64,000 nucleotides of DNA from Chitinophagales bacterium. GTDB lineage: Bacteria > Bacteroidota > Bacteroidia > Chitinophagales > JADJOU01. Numbering within the stretch: position 1 is the first letter of the stretch; each line of letters starts with the position of its first letter. The translations under genes were made by a program, and so were the position numbers. The DNA lies in assembly GCA_016787225.1 (NCBI GenBank), contig JAEUUY010000022.1, positions 1 to 64,000 of the forward strand, in the 5' to 3' direction. This document shows, in pieces, positions 51,488-59,938 of the stretch. The notes beneath the pieces were generated by a model. It was not told where the DNA came from and ran no database searches. It saw nothing but the letters and a program-made list of their open reading frames with translations.

Positions 51488-51527
51488 CCTAATGTAGCAC
51501 TTACTTATGATTTCCTCTGGGACTCAT

Positions 51528-51537
51528 GTGGCGGAGC
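51528..51537 (+). promoter_or_regulatory. Leader motif GTGGCGGAGC resembling an ops/JUMPstart core
   Basis: Located in the upxY leader. The RfaH ops element in Escherichia coli has the core GGCGGTAGC; here GGCGGAGC lacks one base. Similarity is short and may be chance. Confidence 0.25.
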
Positions 51538-51560
51538 TTTGCAAATTATGATATTTTAGA

Positions 51561-52037
51561 ATGACGACAGAAAACTGGAATGCACTTTATCTCAAACCTC
51601 GTACGGAAAAAAAAGTCAAAGAGAGACTCATCCAAAAAGGATTTGAGGTGTATCTTCCTATCTGCATAGTCAAAAAGAAATATAGCGATCGTCTAAAAAA
51701 GGTAGAAGAACCTCTGCTTAAATCCTACATATTTGTGGTAGCAGAAGGAAATAAAAACCCTGAAATTTTGAGAACGGATGGCGTATTAAATTATGTGCAT
51801 AGCACCACAACAGGTAAAGTAGCCATCATAAAAAAGAAGGAATTAGATGACATTCAAGAATACTTGAGTCATAAAATTTTCGATGAGAGCGAATGGGATA
51901 ATTTAAAAATTGGGGACAACACTTTTTTGACCTATTCTGCATTTCAGGGCAAGCAAGCTACCGTCATGGAAATTAAAAAAAATACCATGAAACTGATTAT
52001 TGAAGATTTAGGATTTGTATGGGAAGTGAAAAGATAA
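51561..52037 (+). CDS. UpxY/RfaH-type transcription antiterminator (NusG family)
   Basis: 158 aa with an NGN domain (WNALYLKPRTEKKVKERLIQ, GFEVYLPI) and a KOW-like C-terminal domain (FLTYSAFQGKQATVMEIKKN). These proteins bind RNA polymerase near their own operon leader and stop premature termination of long capsule or O-antigen transcripts. It is the first gene of the locus, as usual. Its last codons are duplicated downstream of the next gene, next to the wzm start. Promoter box and leader lie upstream. Confidence 0.9.
   Translation: MTTENWNALYLKPRTEKKVKERLIQKGFEVYLPICIVKKKYSDRLKKVEEPLLKSYIFVVAEGNKNPEILRTDGVLNYVHSTTTGKVAIIKKKELDDIQEYLSHKIFDESEWDNLKIGDNTFLTYSAFQGKQATVMEIKKNTMKLIIEDLGFVWEVKR
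52000..52036 (+). repeat. 37-bp direct repeat, copy 1 (3' end of upxY)
   Basis: Perfectly identical to 53427-53463. Contains GATTTAGGATTTGTATGGGA and the upxY C-terminal codons for EDLGFVWEVKR. Confidence 0.95.
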
Positions 52038-52059
52038 TATTAGATTTAACACTAATAGT

Positions 52060-53406
52060 ATGATGAGTCTTGAATCTATAAAAGAATTAAGGGAGAGTCA
52101 GACAGTAGAATTTAAGTTAAGTTTTGGTAATGAGACTATAGAAACTTTAGTTGCCTTTGCCAATGCTCAAGGAGGTTCCGTTTATCTGGGGATCACTGAT
52201 AATGGTGAAATAATGGGATTGCATATCGCAAAAGAAACCGTGGCGGAATGGATCAATGAAATCAAGACCAAAACAGCTCCAGCCATTATTCCAGATGTGG
52301 ATATTCTTGAACTGGAGAATAAAGTTTTAGTTGTATTAGGGATGAAAGAATATCCCATCAAGCCAGTTTCATTTAAAGGAAGATATTTAAAACGGGTAGC
52401 TAATTCGAATCATTTATTATCGGTGGCTGAGGTCGCCAATATGCATTTAAGTGCCTTCAATTCTAGTTGGGATTATTATACGAATAATCATTTCAAAATA
52501 GATGATTTAGCCTTAGCAAAAGTTCAATCAGTGATTGATAACTTAAAAACAAATGGTCAAAATATTAATGATGATCCATTGTCATTTCTTTATAAACAAG
52601 ATCTGATTCGAGATGAAAAGATCACAAATGCAGCTTTTCTACTTTTCACAGAAAGAGATACAAGAATGACTACTATAGAAATGGGGCGCTTTCAAACGGA
52701 TATTCTCATAAAAGATAGCCTCCGCTCTCAGTCTGACATTATCAGTCAGGTGAATCAGGTGATTGACTTTGTCAAAAAACATATGAATAAAGCCATCATT
52801 ATAACTGGTCAAGCACAGAATACCCAGCAGTGGCAATATCCTTTGGAGGCTATTCGAGAAATAGTGATGAATATGATTGTGCATAGAGACTATAGAGATA
52901 CCGCTGATTCGATTATAAAAATTTATGATGATAAGATCGAGTTTTTCAATCCGGGTAAGCTTCCAGATGCTATAACAGAGGACGATTTATTGACGAATAG
53001 TTACAAATCTACCCCGAGAAATAAAACGATAGCAGATATATTCCGCACTATGGGCCTAATCGAAAAATATGGGTCAGGAATTCAAAGAATTATCAATTAT
53101 TTTATGGAGGCGGGTCTTCCGAAGCCCAGCTTTAAAAATCAATCAAGCGGTTTTCTAGTCACTATTTATTCAAATGTTACAGAAAATGTTACAGAAAATG
53201 TTACAGAAAATGTTACAGAAAATAGAATTCAAGCCATTATTGACCTTATAAGAAAGAACCCCAAATTGACCACTACCGCCATGTCCAATCAGTTAAACAT
53301 AACAAGAATGACTCTCCATAGAGAACTTGAAAAGCTGAAAGAAAAAGGAATACTCAAAAGAATAGGTCCTGATAAAGGCGGGCACTGGGAAATTAAAGAA
53401 AACTAA
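52060..53406 (+). CDS. AlbA_2 (Schlafen-like) DNA-binding protein with ATPase-like and winged-helix domains
   Basis: 448 aa. Residues about 10-125 are an AlbA_2/Schlafen-type domain (ESQTVEFKLSFGNETIETLVAFANAQGG and LGITDNGEIMGL). Residues about 260-350 are an HATPase_c_4-like segment (EAIREIVMNMIVHRDYRD, FFNPGKLPDAI, MGLIEKYGSGIQRI). A four-fold VTEN linker (about 372-387) joins it to a winged helix (MSNQLNITRMTLHRELEKLKEKGILKR). Family members are transcription regulators or defence-related. The gene sits between two copies of the upxY 3' end, so it seems a late insertion into the locus. Confidence 0.9.
   Translation: MMSLESIKELRESQTVEFKLSFGNETIETLVAFANAQGGSVYLGITDNGEIMGLHIAKETVAEWINEIKTKTAPAIIPDVDILELENKVLVVLGMKEYPIKPVSFKGRYLKRVANSNHLLSVAEVANMHLSAFNSSWDYYTNNHFKIDDLALAKVQSVIDNLKTNGQNINDDPLSFLYKQDLIRDEKITNAAFLLFTERDTRMTTIEMGRFQTDILIKDSLRSQSDIISQVNQVIDFVKKHMNKAIIITGQAQNTQQWQYPLEAIREIVMNMIVHRDYRDTADSIIKIYDDKIEFFNPGKLPDAITEDDLLTNSYKSTPRNKTIADIFRTMGLIEKYGSGIQRIINYFMEAGLPKPSFKNQSSGFLVTIYSNVTENVTENVTENVTENRIQAIIDLIRKNPKLTTTAMSNQLNITRMTLHRELEKLKEKGILKRIGPDKGGHWEIKEN
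53173..53220 (+). repeat. Tandem 12-nt repeat, four copies, inside the AlbA_2 gene
   Basis: Four perfect copies of AATGTTACAGAA code for (NVTE)4 in the linker before the winged helix. The unit is divisible by three, so copy-number change alters linker length without breaking the frame. Confidence 0.95.
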
Positions 53407-53407
53407 T

Positions 53408-53464
53408 GTGGCAATAAAGCTAATTCTTGAAGATTTAGGATTTGTATGGGAAGTGAAAAGATAG
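53408..53464 (+). pseudogene. Remnant of the upxY 3' end
   Basis: Frame VAIKLILEDLGFVWEVKR ending in TAG. Compared with the intact end (TMKLIIEDLGFVWEVKR) it is identical over the last 11 residues. Before that the differences are mostly third-position changes (AAA/AAG, CTG/CTA), so it is a decayed coding copy and not a chance match. It overlaps the wzm start in another frame. Confidence 0.85.
53427..53463 (+). repeat. 37-bp direct repeat, copy 2 (flanking wzm start)
   Basis: Perfect copy of 52000-52036, 1427 nt away. It contains the ATG (53446) used by wzm. Confidence 0.95.
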
Positions 53465-54327
53465 AGAAAAAAGATATTTACAGCGATGACTATTGGGATC
53501 TCATCATAGAGCCTCGCTCTTCTTTATTTCAGATAGATTTCAAAGAGATATGGAAATTTCGCGATCTCCTGCGCATGTTTGTTAAGCGAGAGATTGTACA
53601 ATTCTATAAGCAAACTATACTGGGTCCATTGTGGTTTTTTATTCAGCCCTTGCTTACTACCATAGTCTATATGATAGTCTTTGGGCAAATAGCTAAGCTC
53701 TCTCCCGCTGGCAAACCGCAGATTTTATTTTATCTCTCTGGTGTGGTGCTATGGAATTATTTCGCAGATGTATTGAATAACACAGCAGCCACCTTCCGCG
53801 AGAATGCACAGCTATTCGGCAAAGTATATTTCCCCAGAATCATAGCTCCAGCATCCAAGGCGATATCCAATCTACTAAAACTTTTCATTCAGCTCGGATT
53901 GTTTTTTGCTATTTATATTTATATGGGGGTCACAGGGCAGTTTGAATTCTCTATTTCTTGGACTGTTTTATTATTGCCTTTTTTGATTTTAATATTATTC
54001 AACCTCGGCATGGGTCTAGGCATGATCGTCACGTCAATGACAGCTAAGTATAAAGATTTAATTTTCCTTATCACCTTCGGGGTGCAGCTACTCATGTACG
54101 CTACGCCAGTCATTTATTCGTTGGAGACGATTAGAGATAAGCAGTTCTACACGTGGATAGCCTTTAATCCATTATCACCAGTCATAGAAATTTTTAGAAA
54201 TAGTCTGTTAGGTGGAAATGTAGATTTTGCAATGCTAGGATATTCACTTATTTCATCATTGTTTGTTCTCATACTTGGATTGATGATCTTTAATAAAATA
54301 GAAAAAACATTTATAGATACTGTATAA
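53446..54327 (+). CDS. wzm: Polysaccharide ABC transporter permease, Wzm-type
   Basis: 293 aa, about six membrane segments. The N-terminal IEPRSSLFQIDFKEIWKFRD amphipathic helix and the LLRMFVKREIVQFYKQTILGPLWF segment are typical of O-antigen/teichoic-acid exporters. The family exports a complete lipid-linked glycan across the inner membrane together with Wzt. The ATG at 53446 is coded within the duplicated upxY tail, so in the ancestral order upxY and wzm overlapped. wzt begins 2 nt after its stop. Confidence 0.92.
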   Translation: MGSEKIEKKDIYSDDYWDLIIEPRSSLFQIDFKEIWKFRDLLRMFVKREIVQFYKQTILGPLWFFIQPLLTTIVYMIVFGQIAKLSPAGKPQILFYLSGVVLWNYFADVLNNTAATFRENAQLFGKVYFPRIIAPASKAISNLLKLFIQLGLFFAIYIYMGVTGQFEFSISWTVLLLPFLILILFNLGMGLGMIVTSMTAKYKDLIFLITFGVQLLMYATPVIYSLETIRDKQFYTWIAFNPLSPVIEIFRNSLLGGNVDFAMLGYSLISSLFVLILGLMIFNKIEKTFIDTV

Positions 54328-54328
54328 T

Positions 54329-55576
54329 ATGGCTCTTGCAATTCGTGTAGAAAACCTTTCTAAACAATATCGCCTCGGTCAGATAGGTACAGGTACGATT
54401 AGCCATGACCTGAATCGATTCTGGGCGCAACTGAGAGGCAAGGAAGACCCTTATTCCCAAATAGGCGTAGCCAATGACCGCTCGCAGAAAGCGACTAGCG
54501 ACTATGTATGGGCACTCAAAGACATTAACTTCGAGATAGAACAAGGTGATGCCGTAGGTATTATAGGTAGAAATGGGGCTGGTAAATCTACGCTGCTCAA
54601 AATATTAAGCAGAACGACGCTACCTACGACTGGCTCGGTCAAGATGAAAGGGCGTATCGCTTCACTTCTCGAAGTAGGCACAGGCTTTCACCCAGAGATG
54701 ACAGGGCGTGAAAACATCTATCAAAACGGAGCTATCCTCGGTATGACTCGTCATGAAATCACGCGCAAGTTTGACGAAATCGTGGACTTCAGTGGCTGCG
54801 AAGCATATATCGATACCCCTGTAAAGCGCTATAGCTCGGGCATGTATGTTCGACTCGCCTTCGCAGTAGCAGCCCACCTTGAGAGCGAAATACTCATAGT
54901 AGATGAAGTGCTAGCCGTAGGTGATGCCGAGTTTCAAAAAAAATGCCTAGGCAAAATGAATGATGTAGCCAAGGGTGAAGGGAGGACAGTGCTGTTTGTG
55001 AGTCACAATATGGGGGCAGTATCTCAATTATGTAAGCATTCTATCTTGATGGTAAATGGAAAAACACAAGAAATAGATAAAACAAAAAAAGTTTTAGATA
55101 AATATACAGAACAGCAAATTATCAATTCTATTTATGAGTCAAAGGTAATCAATAAATTGAATTTTTTAAGAAAAATCCATTTCATCAGCACTAACGATAC
55201 TATATGTAATTCATTCAATCACGATGAGGAAATTCAAATTAAGTTTGACATTCAGATTGATTTTTGGAAAAATGATTTATTATTGGTCTATGGAATTCAG
55301 AATAACTTGAACACAAGAGTTTGCCTTGACTTTATATCTATTGATACGAAAGCTAGAAATGTTATTTATTCAGTAAAACTGCCAAAAGAGTTTTTAACGC
55401 CTGGAGTTTATTCAATCGATGTGTCTTTATTGTCTTCAACGGAAGGAGCATTTGATATAATATTCGGGGCATGCACATTTGAAGTAATAAACAATAAATC
55501 AAGACTAACTCCTTTCTTAGGAATGGATTATGGTAACGTATTTTTAAATTCAAAATATTTTCACATAAATAAATAA
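54329..55576 (+). CDS. wzt: Polysaccharide ABC transporter ATP-binding protein, Wzt-type
   Basis: 415 aa. The ATPase domain (to about residue 240) has Walker A GRNGAGKST, signature YSSGMYVRLAFA, Walker B EILIVDEVLAVGD and the H-loop SHN. The last 165 residues form a separate beta-sandwich domain that in Wzt recognises the end of the exported glycan. Base composition breaks sharply near 55,015: lines before it are about 45-50 percent GC and lines after it about 22-25 percent. The substrate domain seems to have been replaced by recombination. Confidence 0.93.
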   Translation: MALAIRVENLSKQYRLGQIGTGTISHDLNRFWAQLRGKEDPYSQIGVANDRSQKATSDYVWALKDINFEIEQGDAVGIIGRNGAGKSTLLKILSRTTLPTTGSVKMKGRIASLLEVGTGFHPEMTGRENIYQNGAILGMTRHEITRKFDEIVDFSGCEAYIDTPVKRYSSGMYVRLAFAVAAHLESEILIVDEVLAVGDAEFQKKCLGKMNDVAKGEGRTVLFVSHNMGAVSQLCKHSILMVNGKTQEIDKTKKVLDKYTEQQIINSIYESKVINKLNFLRKIHFISTNDTICNSFNHDEEIQIKFDIQIDFWKNDLLLVYGIQNNLNTRVCLDFISIDTKARNVIYSVKLPKEFLTPGVYSIDVSLLSSTEGAFDIIFGACTFEVINNKSRLTPFLGMDYGNVFLNSKYFHINK

Positions 55577-58999: not shown

Positions 59000-59938
59000 T
59001 TGACTTGTAAAAATTCTATAGCCCTCCTAATTCCATACTTCGGAAAATTTCCCGAATGGGCGCCATTGTATTTTGAGACCCTTCGTCAAAATTCTACAAT
59101 TGATTTTTACTTTTATACCGATTGTGACTATACTCCTTATGCGCATATACCTAATGCTATATTTCGCAAATTCGAGTATGAGGATTATTTAAATATGGTG
59201 CGCAGTAATGCAGAAATTGATTTTAAACCTTCATCGGCTTACAAATTATGCGACCTTAGACCTTTGTATCCTCTCATTCACTTCGAAGATATTCAAAGCT
59301 ATGATTTCTATGGGTGGACGGATATGGATATTTTGTTGGGAGATATACGCTCCTTTTATACTGATGAATTACTTCAAAACTACGATGTTTTTTCTACTCA
59401 TGAGATACGAATATCAGGTCATCTAGCTATTTTCCGCAATACAGCTAAGAATAGAAATGCATATAAAAGCATTTATAATTGGCGTGAGAATTTAGCGCAT
59501 CCAGATTTTGTAGGTATCGATGAGCATGGTATTACCAATGCCTTAACTATGACTTTTTTTGACAAGTTAAATGAAAAAATGCATTGGAAGATAGATAATT
59601 TTATTACTCGCTGGCTCAAAAAAATAAAAATGGCCAGGCTCTATTTGTTGGAGCAATACACAACTCCATTTATAAGCACCCCATGGATTGATGGCAGTGT
59701 CAATAGCGCCCAACCAGATGTTTGGTATTATAAAGATGGACACATAACAAACAATAGAGATGGTAATCGGAATTTTATTTACCTACATTTTATGAACTTC
59801 AAATCGAGTCAATGGCGCCATGATAGTACACAAGCCCCATGGGAGGGTAAAAGAAATATTGTTAGTGCCAAAGTGGAAGATATGAAACAGGGAATAGTAA
59901 TTGATACGAATGGAATATATAAATTGTCAGAAGATTAA
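59000..59938 (+). CDS. DUF6625-like, putative glycosyltransferase
   Basis: 312 aa, TTG start at 59000, chosen because no ATG or GTG occurs upstream in frame and the conserved core begins at residue 5. The core reads NSIALLIPYFGKFPEWAPLYFETLRQN, FYFYTDCDY, GWTDMDILLGDI, HLAIFRN and YLHFMNFKS. This GT-A-like set, with an acidic DMD metal site, resembles the family labelled DUF6625 found in polysaccharide loci. The donor sugar is unknown. Base composition is less AT-rich than in the four genes before it. Confidence 0.72.
   Translation: MTCKNSIALLIPYFGKFPEWAPLYFETLRQNSTIDFYFYTDCDYTPYAHIPNAIFRKFEYEDYLNMVRSNAEIDFKPSSAYKLCDLRPLYPLIHFEDIQSYDFYGWTDMDILLGDIRSFYTDELLQNYDVFSTHEIRISGHLAIFRNTAKNRNAYKSIYNWRENLAHPDFVGIDEHGITNALTMTFFDKLNEKMHWKIDNFITRWLKKIKMARLYLLEQYTTPFISTPWIDGSVNSAQPDVWYYKDGHITNNRDGNRNFIYLHFMNFKSSQWRHDSTQAPWEGKRNIVSAKVEDMKQGIVIDTNGIYKLSED

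Follow-up and report, generated by a model that had tools for sequence, protein, structure and literature searches.

Passenger genes and serial upxY 3' ends at the upxY-wzm junction of a Chitinophagales polysaccharide operon

In a genus of Chitinophagales, the junction between the antiterminator gene upxY, with which a polysaccharide operon begins, and the exporter gene wzm occurs in empty, single-insert and multiple-insert states. The inserts are accompanied by additional copies of the upxY 3' end (tails), the inner tails of the multiple-insert state have lost the wzm ATG, and the phylogeny of upxY conflicts with that of the chromosomal flank. We consider it reasonably probable that the passenger genes were exchanged along with upxY by recombination, and that a tail was kept because wzm needs it. 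The analysis centers on a window of 64,000 nt (contig JAEUUY010000022.1, positions 1 to 64,000), whose genome (G000) was compared with four genomes of the same genus (G001 to G004) and one from another genus of the family (G005).

Genes and Repeats at the Window Junction

The following features of the window define the junction:

51521..51538, plus strand: ops-like element GACTCATGTGGCGGAGCT, proposed from its conservation upstream of upxY as the antiterminator loading site of the operon
51561..52037, plus strand: upxY, NusG-like transcription antiterminator and first gene of the polysaccharide operon (PF02357, E 2e-13; NF033644)
51987..52036, plus strand: tail copy 1, with which the intact upxY ends (no difference from copy 2 over 52000-52036)
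52038..52059, plus strand: short leader with the core ATTAGATTTAAC in the gap between upxY and the AlbA_2 gene, common to both AlbA_2 units of G003
52060..53406, plus strand: passenger gene encoding a 448-aa protein with Schlafen-type AlbA_2, HATPase_c_4 and winged-helix domains, assigned by domain matches
53172..53231, plus strand: 12-bp tandem repeat encoding VTEN four times, in the linker that joins the HATPase and winged-helix domains
53414..53463, plus strand: tail copy 2, a upxY 3' remnant that includes the start codon of wzm and its immediate upstream sequence (G003 tail 4 occupies the same place)
53446..54327, plus strand: wzm, ABC-2 type permease of polysaccharide export (PF01061, E 2e-17)
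54329..55576, plus strand: wzt, ATPase of the wzm exporter, beginning 1 nt past the end of wzm, no overlap

The upxY product combines a NusG N-terminal domain with a full-length UpxY-type match (NF033644, E 7e-28, at 97.8 bits just below the 100-bit cut-off), and its gene heads a polysaccharide operon that continues with wzm-wzt and glycosyltransferases. It is the single upxY match in the genome. The 37-nt exact direct repeat of the preliminary description was re-found at 52000-52036 and 53427-53463, and a chance origin was discarded, as 200 composition shuffles of the 5-kb stretch gave exact repeats of at most 16 nt. The repeat stretches to 50 nt at 92% identity (51987-52036 versus 53414-53463). 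Copy 2 is, as had been proposed, a remnant of upxY coding sequence, although to call its differences mostly synonymous was generous: in the five codons 5' of the 37 nt, which read IKLIL in copy 2 and MKLII in copy 1, two changes are synonymous and two are conservative amino acid changes. The wzm ATG was correctly placed inside the tail, at 53446 within copy 2, which contains the first 18 nt of wzm. Tail copy 2 showed no RNA folding beyond that of shuffled sequences.

The insert had been described as carrying one gene, and a single ORF indeed occupies it (52060-53406), with SLFN_AlbA_2, HATPase_c_4 and DeoR-type winged-helix domains. Across ten homologues, the AlbA_2 residues E12, E17 and K19 (the E..E.K motif) and the HATPase N-box residues E267 and N271 (E...N) are invariant, and an Asp near position 46/47 is mostly present; with its C-terminal winged helix, the protein has the hallmarks of the SLFN_AlbA_2/COG2865-like group. 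Schlafen-type ribonucleases cleave RNA or tRNA with an E/E/D centre, to which E12, E17 and the Asp might correspond. It matches PDB 3lmm both in sequence (E 4e-11) and, through a Foldseek search with a predicted model, in fold (E 1e-22); its fold is also weakly similar to SLFN12 and to the tRNase domain of SAMD9. Because the AlphaFold model is only moderate (mean pLDDT 69.6, pTM 0.43), just the fold-level match to 3lmm is relied on. A dN/dS of about 0.09 between the window and G003 genes, with dS close to saturation, indicates that the gene is under purifying selection. PADLOC defence models gave no confident full-length match, only partial ones (pAgo-associated and others) via shared domains. 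Close relatives were absent from viral contigs, and on plasmids and phages identity reached at most about 35% among the matches listed; in the genome contigs searched, G003 has the only close relative. Judged by its domains, the protein is most likely a nucleic-acid-acting regulator or a conflict gene, and its gene probably shares the transcript of the capsule operon, subject to UpxY antitermination. Its four-residue (12-bp) linker repeat after the HATPase domain belongs to a type seen in 7 of 30 AlbA_2-HATPase-winged-helix matches, with units that differ (VTEN, VVEN, DLNK, TEQV, TPHD, TVND, KGGQ); the carriers besides the window are L024, L029, L034, L037, L046 and L049.

Of 46 upxY loci in the order (L001-L020 and L069-L094), 21 have a 17-nt element (GACTGAGNTGGCGAAGC) some 30-100 nt 5' of the gene, counted at 13 or more of 16 matches, against 0.005 expected from shuffles. 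This expectation is optimistic because these loci also supplied the consensus. The element has a single copy in the window's genome, and the stretch folds no better than shuffled sequences. The ops element of RfaH is GGCGGTAGCGTG, which we take the core GGCG(A/G/T)AGC to resemble. The conserved element is a candidate site for recruiting UpxY antiterminators. The leader 5' of upxY is where UpxY acts (PMC7819879), and E. coli RfaH is the one RfaH-like protein whose recruitment is known in detail (PMC7593976).

The Same Junction in Related Genomes

Both an empty site and further insertions with the same end had been predicted, and both are present. In G001, no gene separates upxY from wzm and the two overlap by 19 nt, which supports the earlier view of an ancestral overlap with later insertion; this locus has another upxY type (64-69% amino acid identity) and does not form a direct before-and-after pair with the window. 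In G003 (JAURJQ010000006.1, a Chitinophagales MAG), three extra upxY tails were found. There, upxY with tail 1 is followed by the leader and the apparent first codons of an AlbA_2 gene, then by glycosyltransferase fragments flanking an AAA_14/DUF4143 ATPase gene, the winged-helix part with which the decayed AlbA_2 gene ends, and tail 2; a second AAA_14/DUF4143 ATPase gene leads to tail 3 with another leader, an AlbA_2 gene whose product is 62% identical to that of the window, and tail 4 with the wzm start. Each unit closes with a tail (AlbA_2a remnant-tail 2, ATPase-tail 3, AlbA_2b-tail 4-wzm). The AlbA_2 3' end together with tail 2 aligns to the window as a single 133-nt unit (E 2e-14), and tail, leader and first AlbA_2 codons form an internal repeat of 115 nt at 88%. 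As read from these arrangements, the upxY-wzm junction is a repeated landing place where each unit ends in a upxY tail.

The glycosyltransferase fragments of G003 (L053 7500-7724 and 9043-9224, minus strand) stand in swapped order on either side of the ATPase gene and are homologous to window positions 59000-59938; the G003 genome has no intact copy. A Uma2-type gene lies between DUF4286 and DUF386 in G001 (L054 5256-5855) and is absent from the window, G002 and G003. Genes of 23S rRNA IVP type follow wzm in two genomes (L053 620-2200 and L054 7850-8579), with long repeats of the CCCTCAA/TTGAGGG type nearby.

In the remaining genomes, G002 retains a upxY pseudogene and no wzm was found in it, G004 (62% complete) gave no match, and in G005 upxY is followed by DUF386, a DoxX-like gene and then wzm, without a second tail. 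Only two genomes carry the inserts, the window's and G003, which points to few independent insertions. As controls, 40 other upxY loci of the order were inspected, most over about 12 kb and some over less. None showed a clear second upxY tail (weak blastn matches to the tail occur in L127 and L124, E 0.002 and 0.007), an AlbA_2 gene or an ATPase of the AAA_14/DUF4143 kind. None of the 40 has a upxY-wzm overlap either, and the overlap therefore seems special to this genus.

Persistence of the Last Tail

The wzm ATG is retained in the tail next to wzm in the window (copy 2), in G003 (tail 4) and in G001, and in the first two the wzm reading frame is retained as well. The inner G003 tails lack it: tail 2 reads ATT and tail 3 ATA, the latter with an in-frame stop. 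Between the intact upxY genes of the window and G003, a 32-nt exact run extends from -17 to +15 relative to the wzm ATG; by codon-order shuffling, such a run has P 5e-5 at the 3' end and 0.004 anywhere in the gene. Since the run covers the wzm start, the 37-nt block is most likely a two-function part rather than an attachment core, with identity highest at the wzm end because of selection on the start signal. The unusual identity of tail 1 between the two genomes could also stem from gene conversion or from sequence-specific recombination. In the G003 tail equivalent to copy 2, homology spans 24-26 codons, and the duplicated stretch in that genome exceeds 37 nt. The 37-nt limit, as these alignments place it, is that of the wzm start region and not a border of the duplication.

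The neighboring junction provides a contrast. Between wzm and wzt of G003, genes for a second AlbA_2 protein, a RhuM-like protein and a 23S rRNA IVP-type product are inserted without a duplicated gene end, and wzm and wzt do not overlap in the window. This is a single comparison, and it fits retention of the tail through the overlap.

Horizontal Exchange and Rival Histories

From queA to DUF386, G002 and G003 are nearly identical (amino acid identity 0.95-0.99, with 0.79-0.95 of synonymous codons identical). The window is distant in this flank; for DUF4286 and DUF386, G001 stands nearer to G002 and G003 than the window does. For upxY, identity is 0.79 between the window and G003, 0.69 between G003 and G001 and 0.64 between the window and G001, while the G002 pseudogene is of the G001 type (66% to G001, 50% to the window and G003). 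Because the upxY tree conflicts with the flank tree, the upxY haplotype of G003 was probably acquired horizontally, most likely from a window-like source, the left breakpoint falling between DUF386 and upxY. On the other side, the window Wzm is 92% identical to that of G003 and 84% to that of G001. Synonymous divergence between the window and G003 is about 0.95 in wzm/wzt versus more than 2 or saturated in the upstream genes, and this lower value suggests further exchange to the right.

We propose the following history. In the ancestor, upxY and wzm would have overlapped, the last ~50 nt of upxY also holding the wzm translation start. A passenger would then have come to lie between them on a haplotype consisting of upxY, the passenger and the 3' end of another upxY; the joining of an AlbA_2 3' end to a upxY tail is a step that we infer. 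The second tail would have been kept, and the rest of that upxY lost, because wzm could not be translated without the tail. Ordinary homologous recombination, swapping blocks of upxY and passenger between species, may have spread and changed the haplotype, several tail-ended units would have piled up in G003, and a dedicated integrase would not be needed. The preliminary description had offered unequal recombination between two upxY genes as its alternative. This fits better than an integrase, given the conflict between upxY and flank in G003. Two upxY genes in the window's genome can be discarded as the source of the repeat, as the genome has a single upxY match.

A bolder version, which we put forward only tentatively and think unlikely, makes the overlap of upxY with the next gene a landing platform, with gene-plus-tail units moving by recombination between tails and the capsule antiterminator reading through them. 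If true, this would be a cassette system without a recombinase of its own, whose cargo is unrelated conflict-type genes (AlbA_2/HATPase proteins and AAA_14-DUF4143 ATPases). Exchangeable cassettes of this kind, excised as circles by tail recombination and reinserted so that the array grows and shrinks, would account for G003 units that are alike at their ends (115 nt at 88%) and unlike inside, for AlbA_2 proteins just 62% identical between the window and G003 beside a Wzm at 92%, and for a 37-nt identity in the window that looks recently homogenised. Yet excised or reordered arrays were not seen, a single array is known, 37 nt is short for RecA-dependent exchange and the inner tails decay; we regard such cassette cycling as doubtful.

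The first reading of the repeat was of an integrating element that restored the gene end from its own copy, and this did not find support. A small element using the upxY 3' end as attachment site, its integrase since lost or supplied in trans, would explain tail-flanked inserts of differing content at one site, the perfect 37-nt repeat and the unusual conservation of tail nucleotides between the window and G003 upxY genes, and the window's genome does encode three tyrosine recombinases (PF00589). None of these lies within the window. A 399-aa tyrosine recombinase frame is present on the window's contig, about 120 kb away (G000:C22:174154-174627). The AlbA_2 ORF is alone in its insert, as had been noted, and the G003 inserts likewise contain no integrase. 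A search for the 32-mer tail core elsewhere in the window's genome found no copy with up to 3 mismatches. A repeat like an attachment core does exist, yet its boundaries coincide with those of the wzm start region, which explains the conserved run, and the G003 tails are longer, with homology that varies from about 50 to 78 nt and is not highest at one fixed inner point. Site-specific integration is accordingly improbable. Least probable of all is one old insertion that the genus inherited from its ancestor and that was later lost in G001 and decayed in G003, without horizontal exchange. Such a history suits the identical kind of gene, leader and place in the window and G003 but not the conflict between the upxY tree and the chromosomal flank, nor the G001-type pseudogene of G002.

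Comparison With Known Systems

Gene overlap is commonly held to prevent insertion, and here the overlap region is duplicated. With the duplicate retained by selection for the downstream start codon, insertions would become visible as a string of tails, a readable record of what entered the capsule operon. The host group consists of little-known water bacteria, and the locus shows how a capsule operon may gain passengers.

The passenger resembles COG2865-type AlbA_2/HATPase/winged-helix proteins of solved structure (PDB 3lmm, 2kyy) in domain order and fold; unlike them, it sits in a capsule operon. As in the capsule operons of Bacteroides, a NusG-type antiterminator gene heads its own polysaccharide operon (PMC7593976, PMC7819879). 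These operons differ from the present one in that no upxZ was seen adjoining upxY here, upxY and wzm overlap in G001, and passengers lie between them in the window and G003. The orphan cdiA-CT and rhs-CT modules, whose movement is attributed to recombination within conserved gene sequence (PMC3150448), likewise form a series of units, each of which includes a piece of the upstream gene's 3' part. In those modules the 3' part is a variable toxin, whereas here the tail is conserved and the passengers are unrelated to upxY. Mobile elements can integrate into the 3' ends of genes and restore the tail, as e14 does in E. coli icd. The present locus has the same succession of intact gene, insert and second copy of the gene's 3' end, but it has a one-gene insert without an integrase, serial tails in G003, and an identity pattern that tracks the wzm start instead of an attachment core. 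When the 3' end of a gene recurs beside an insert, this need not imply an integrase, since a doubly constrained overlap looks alike.
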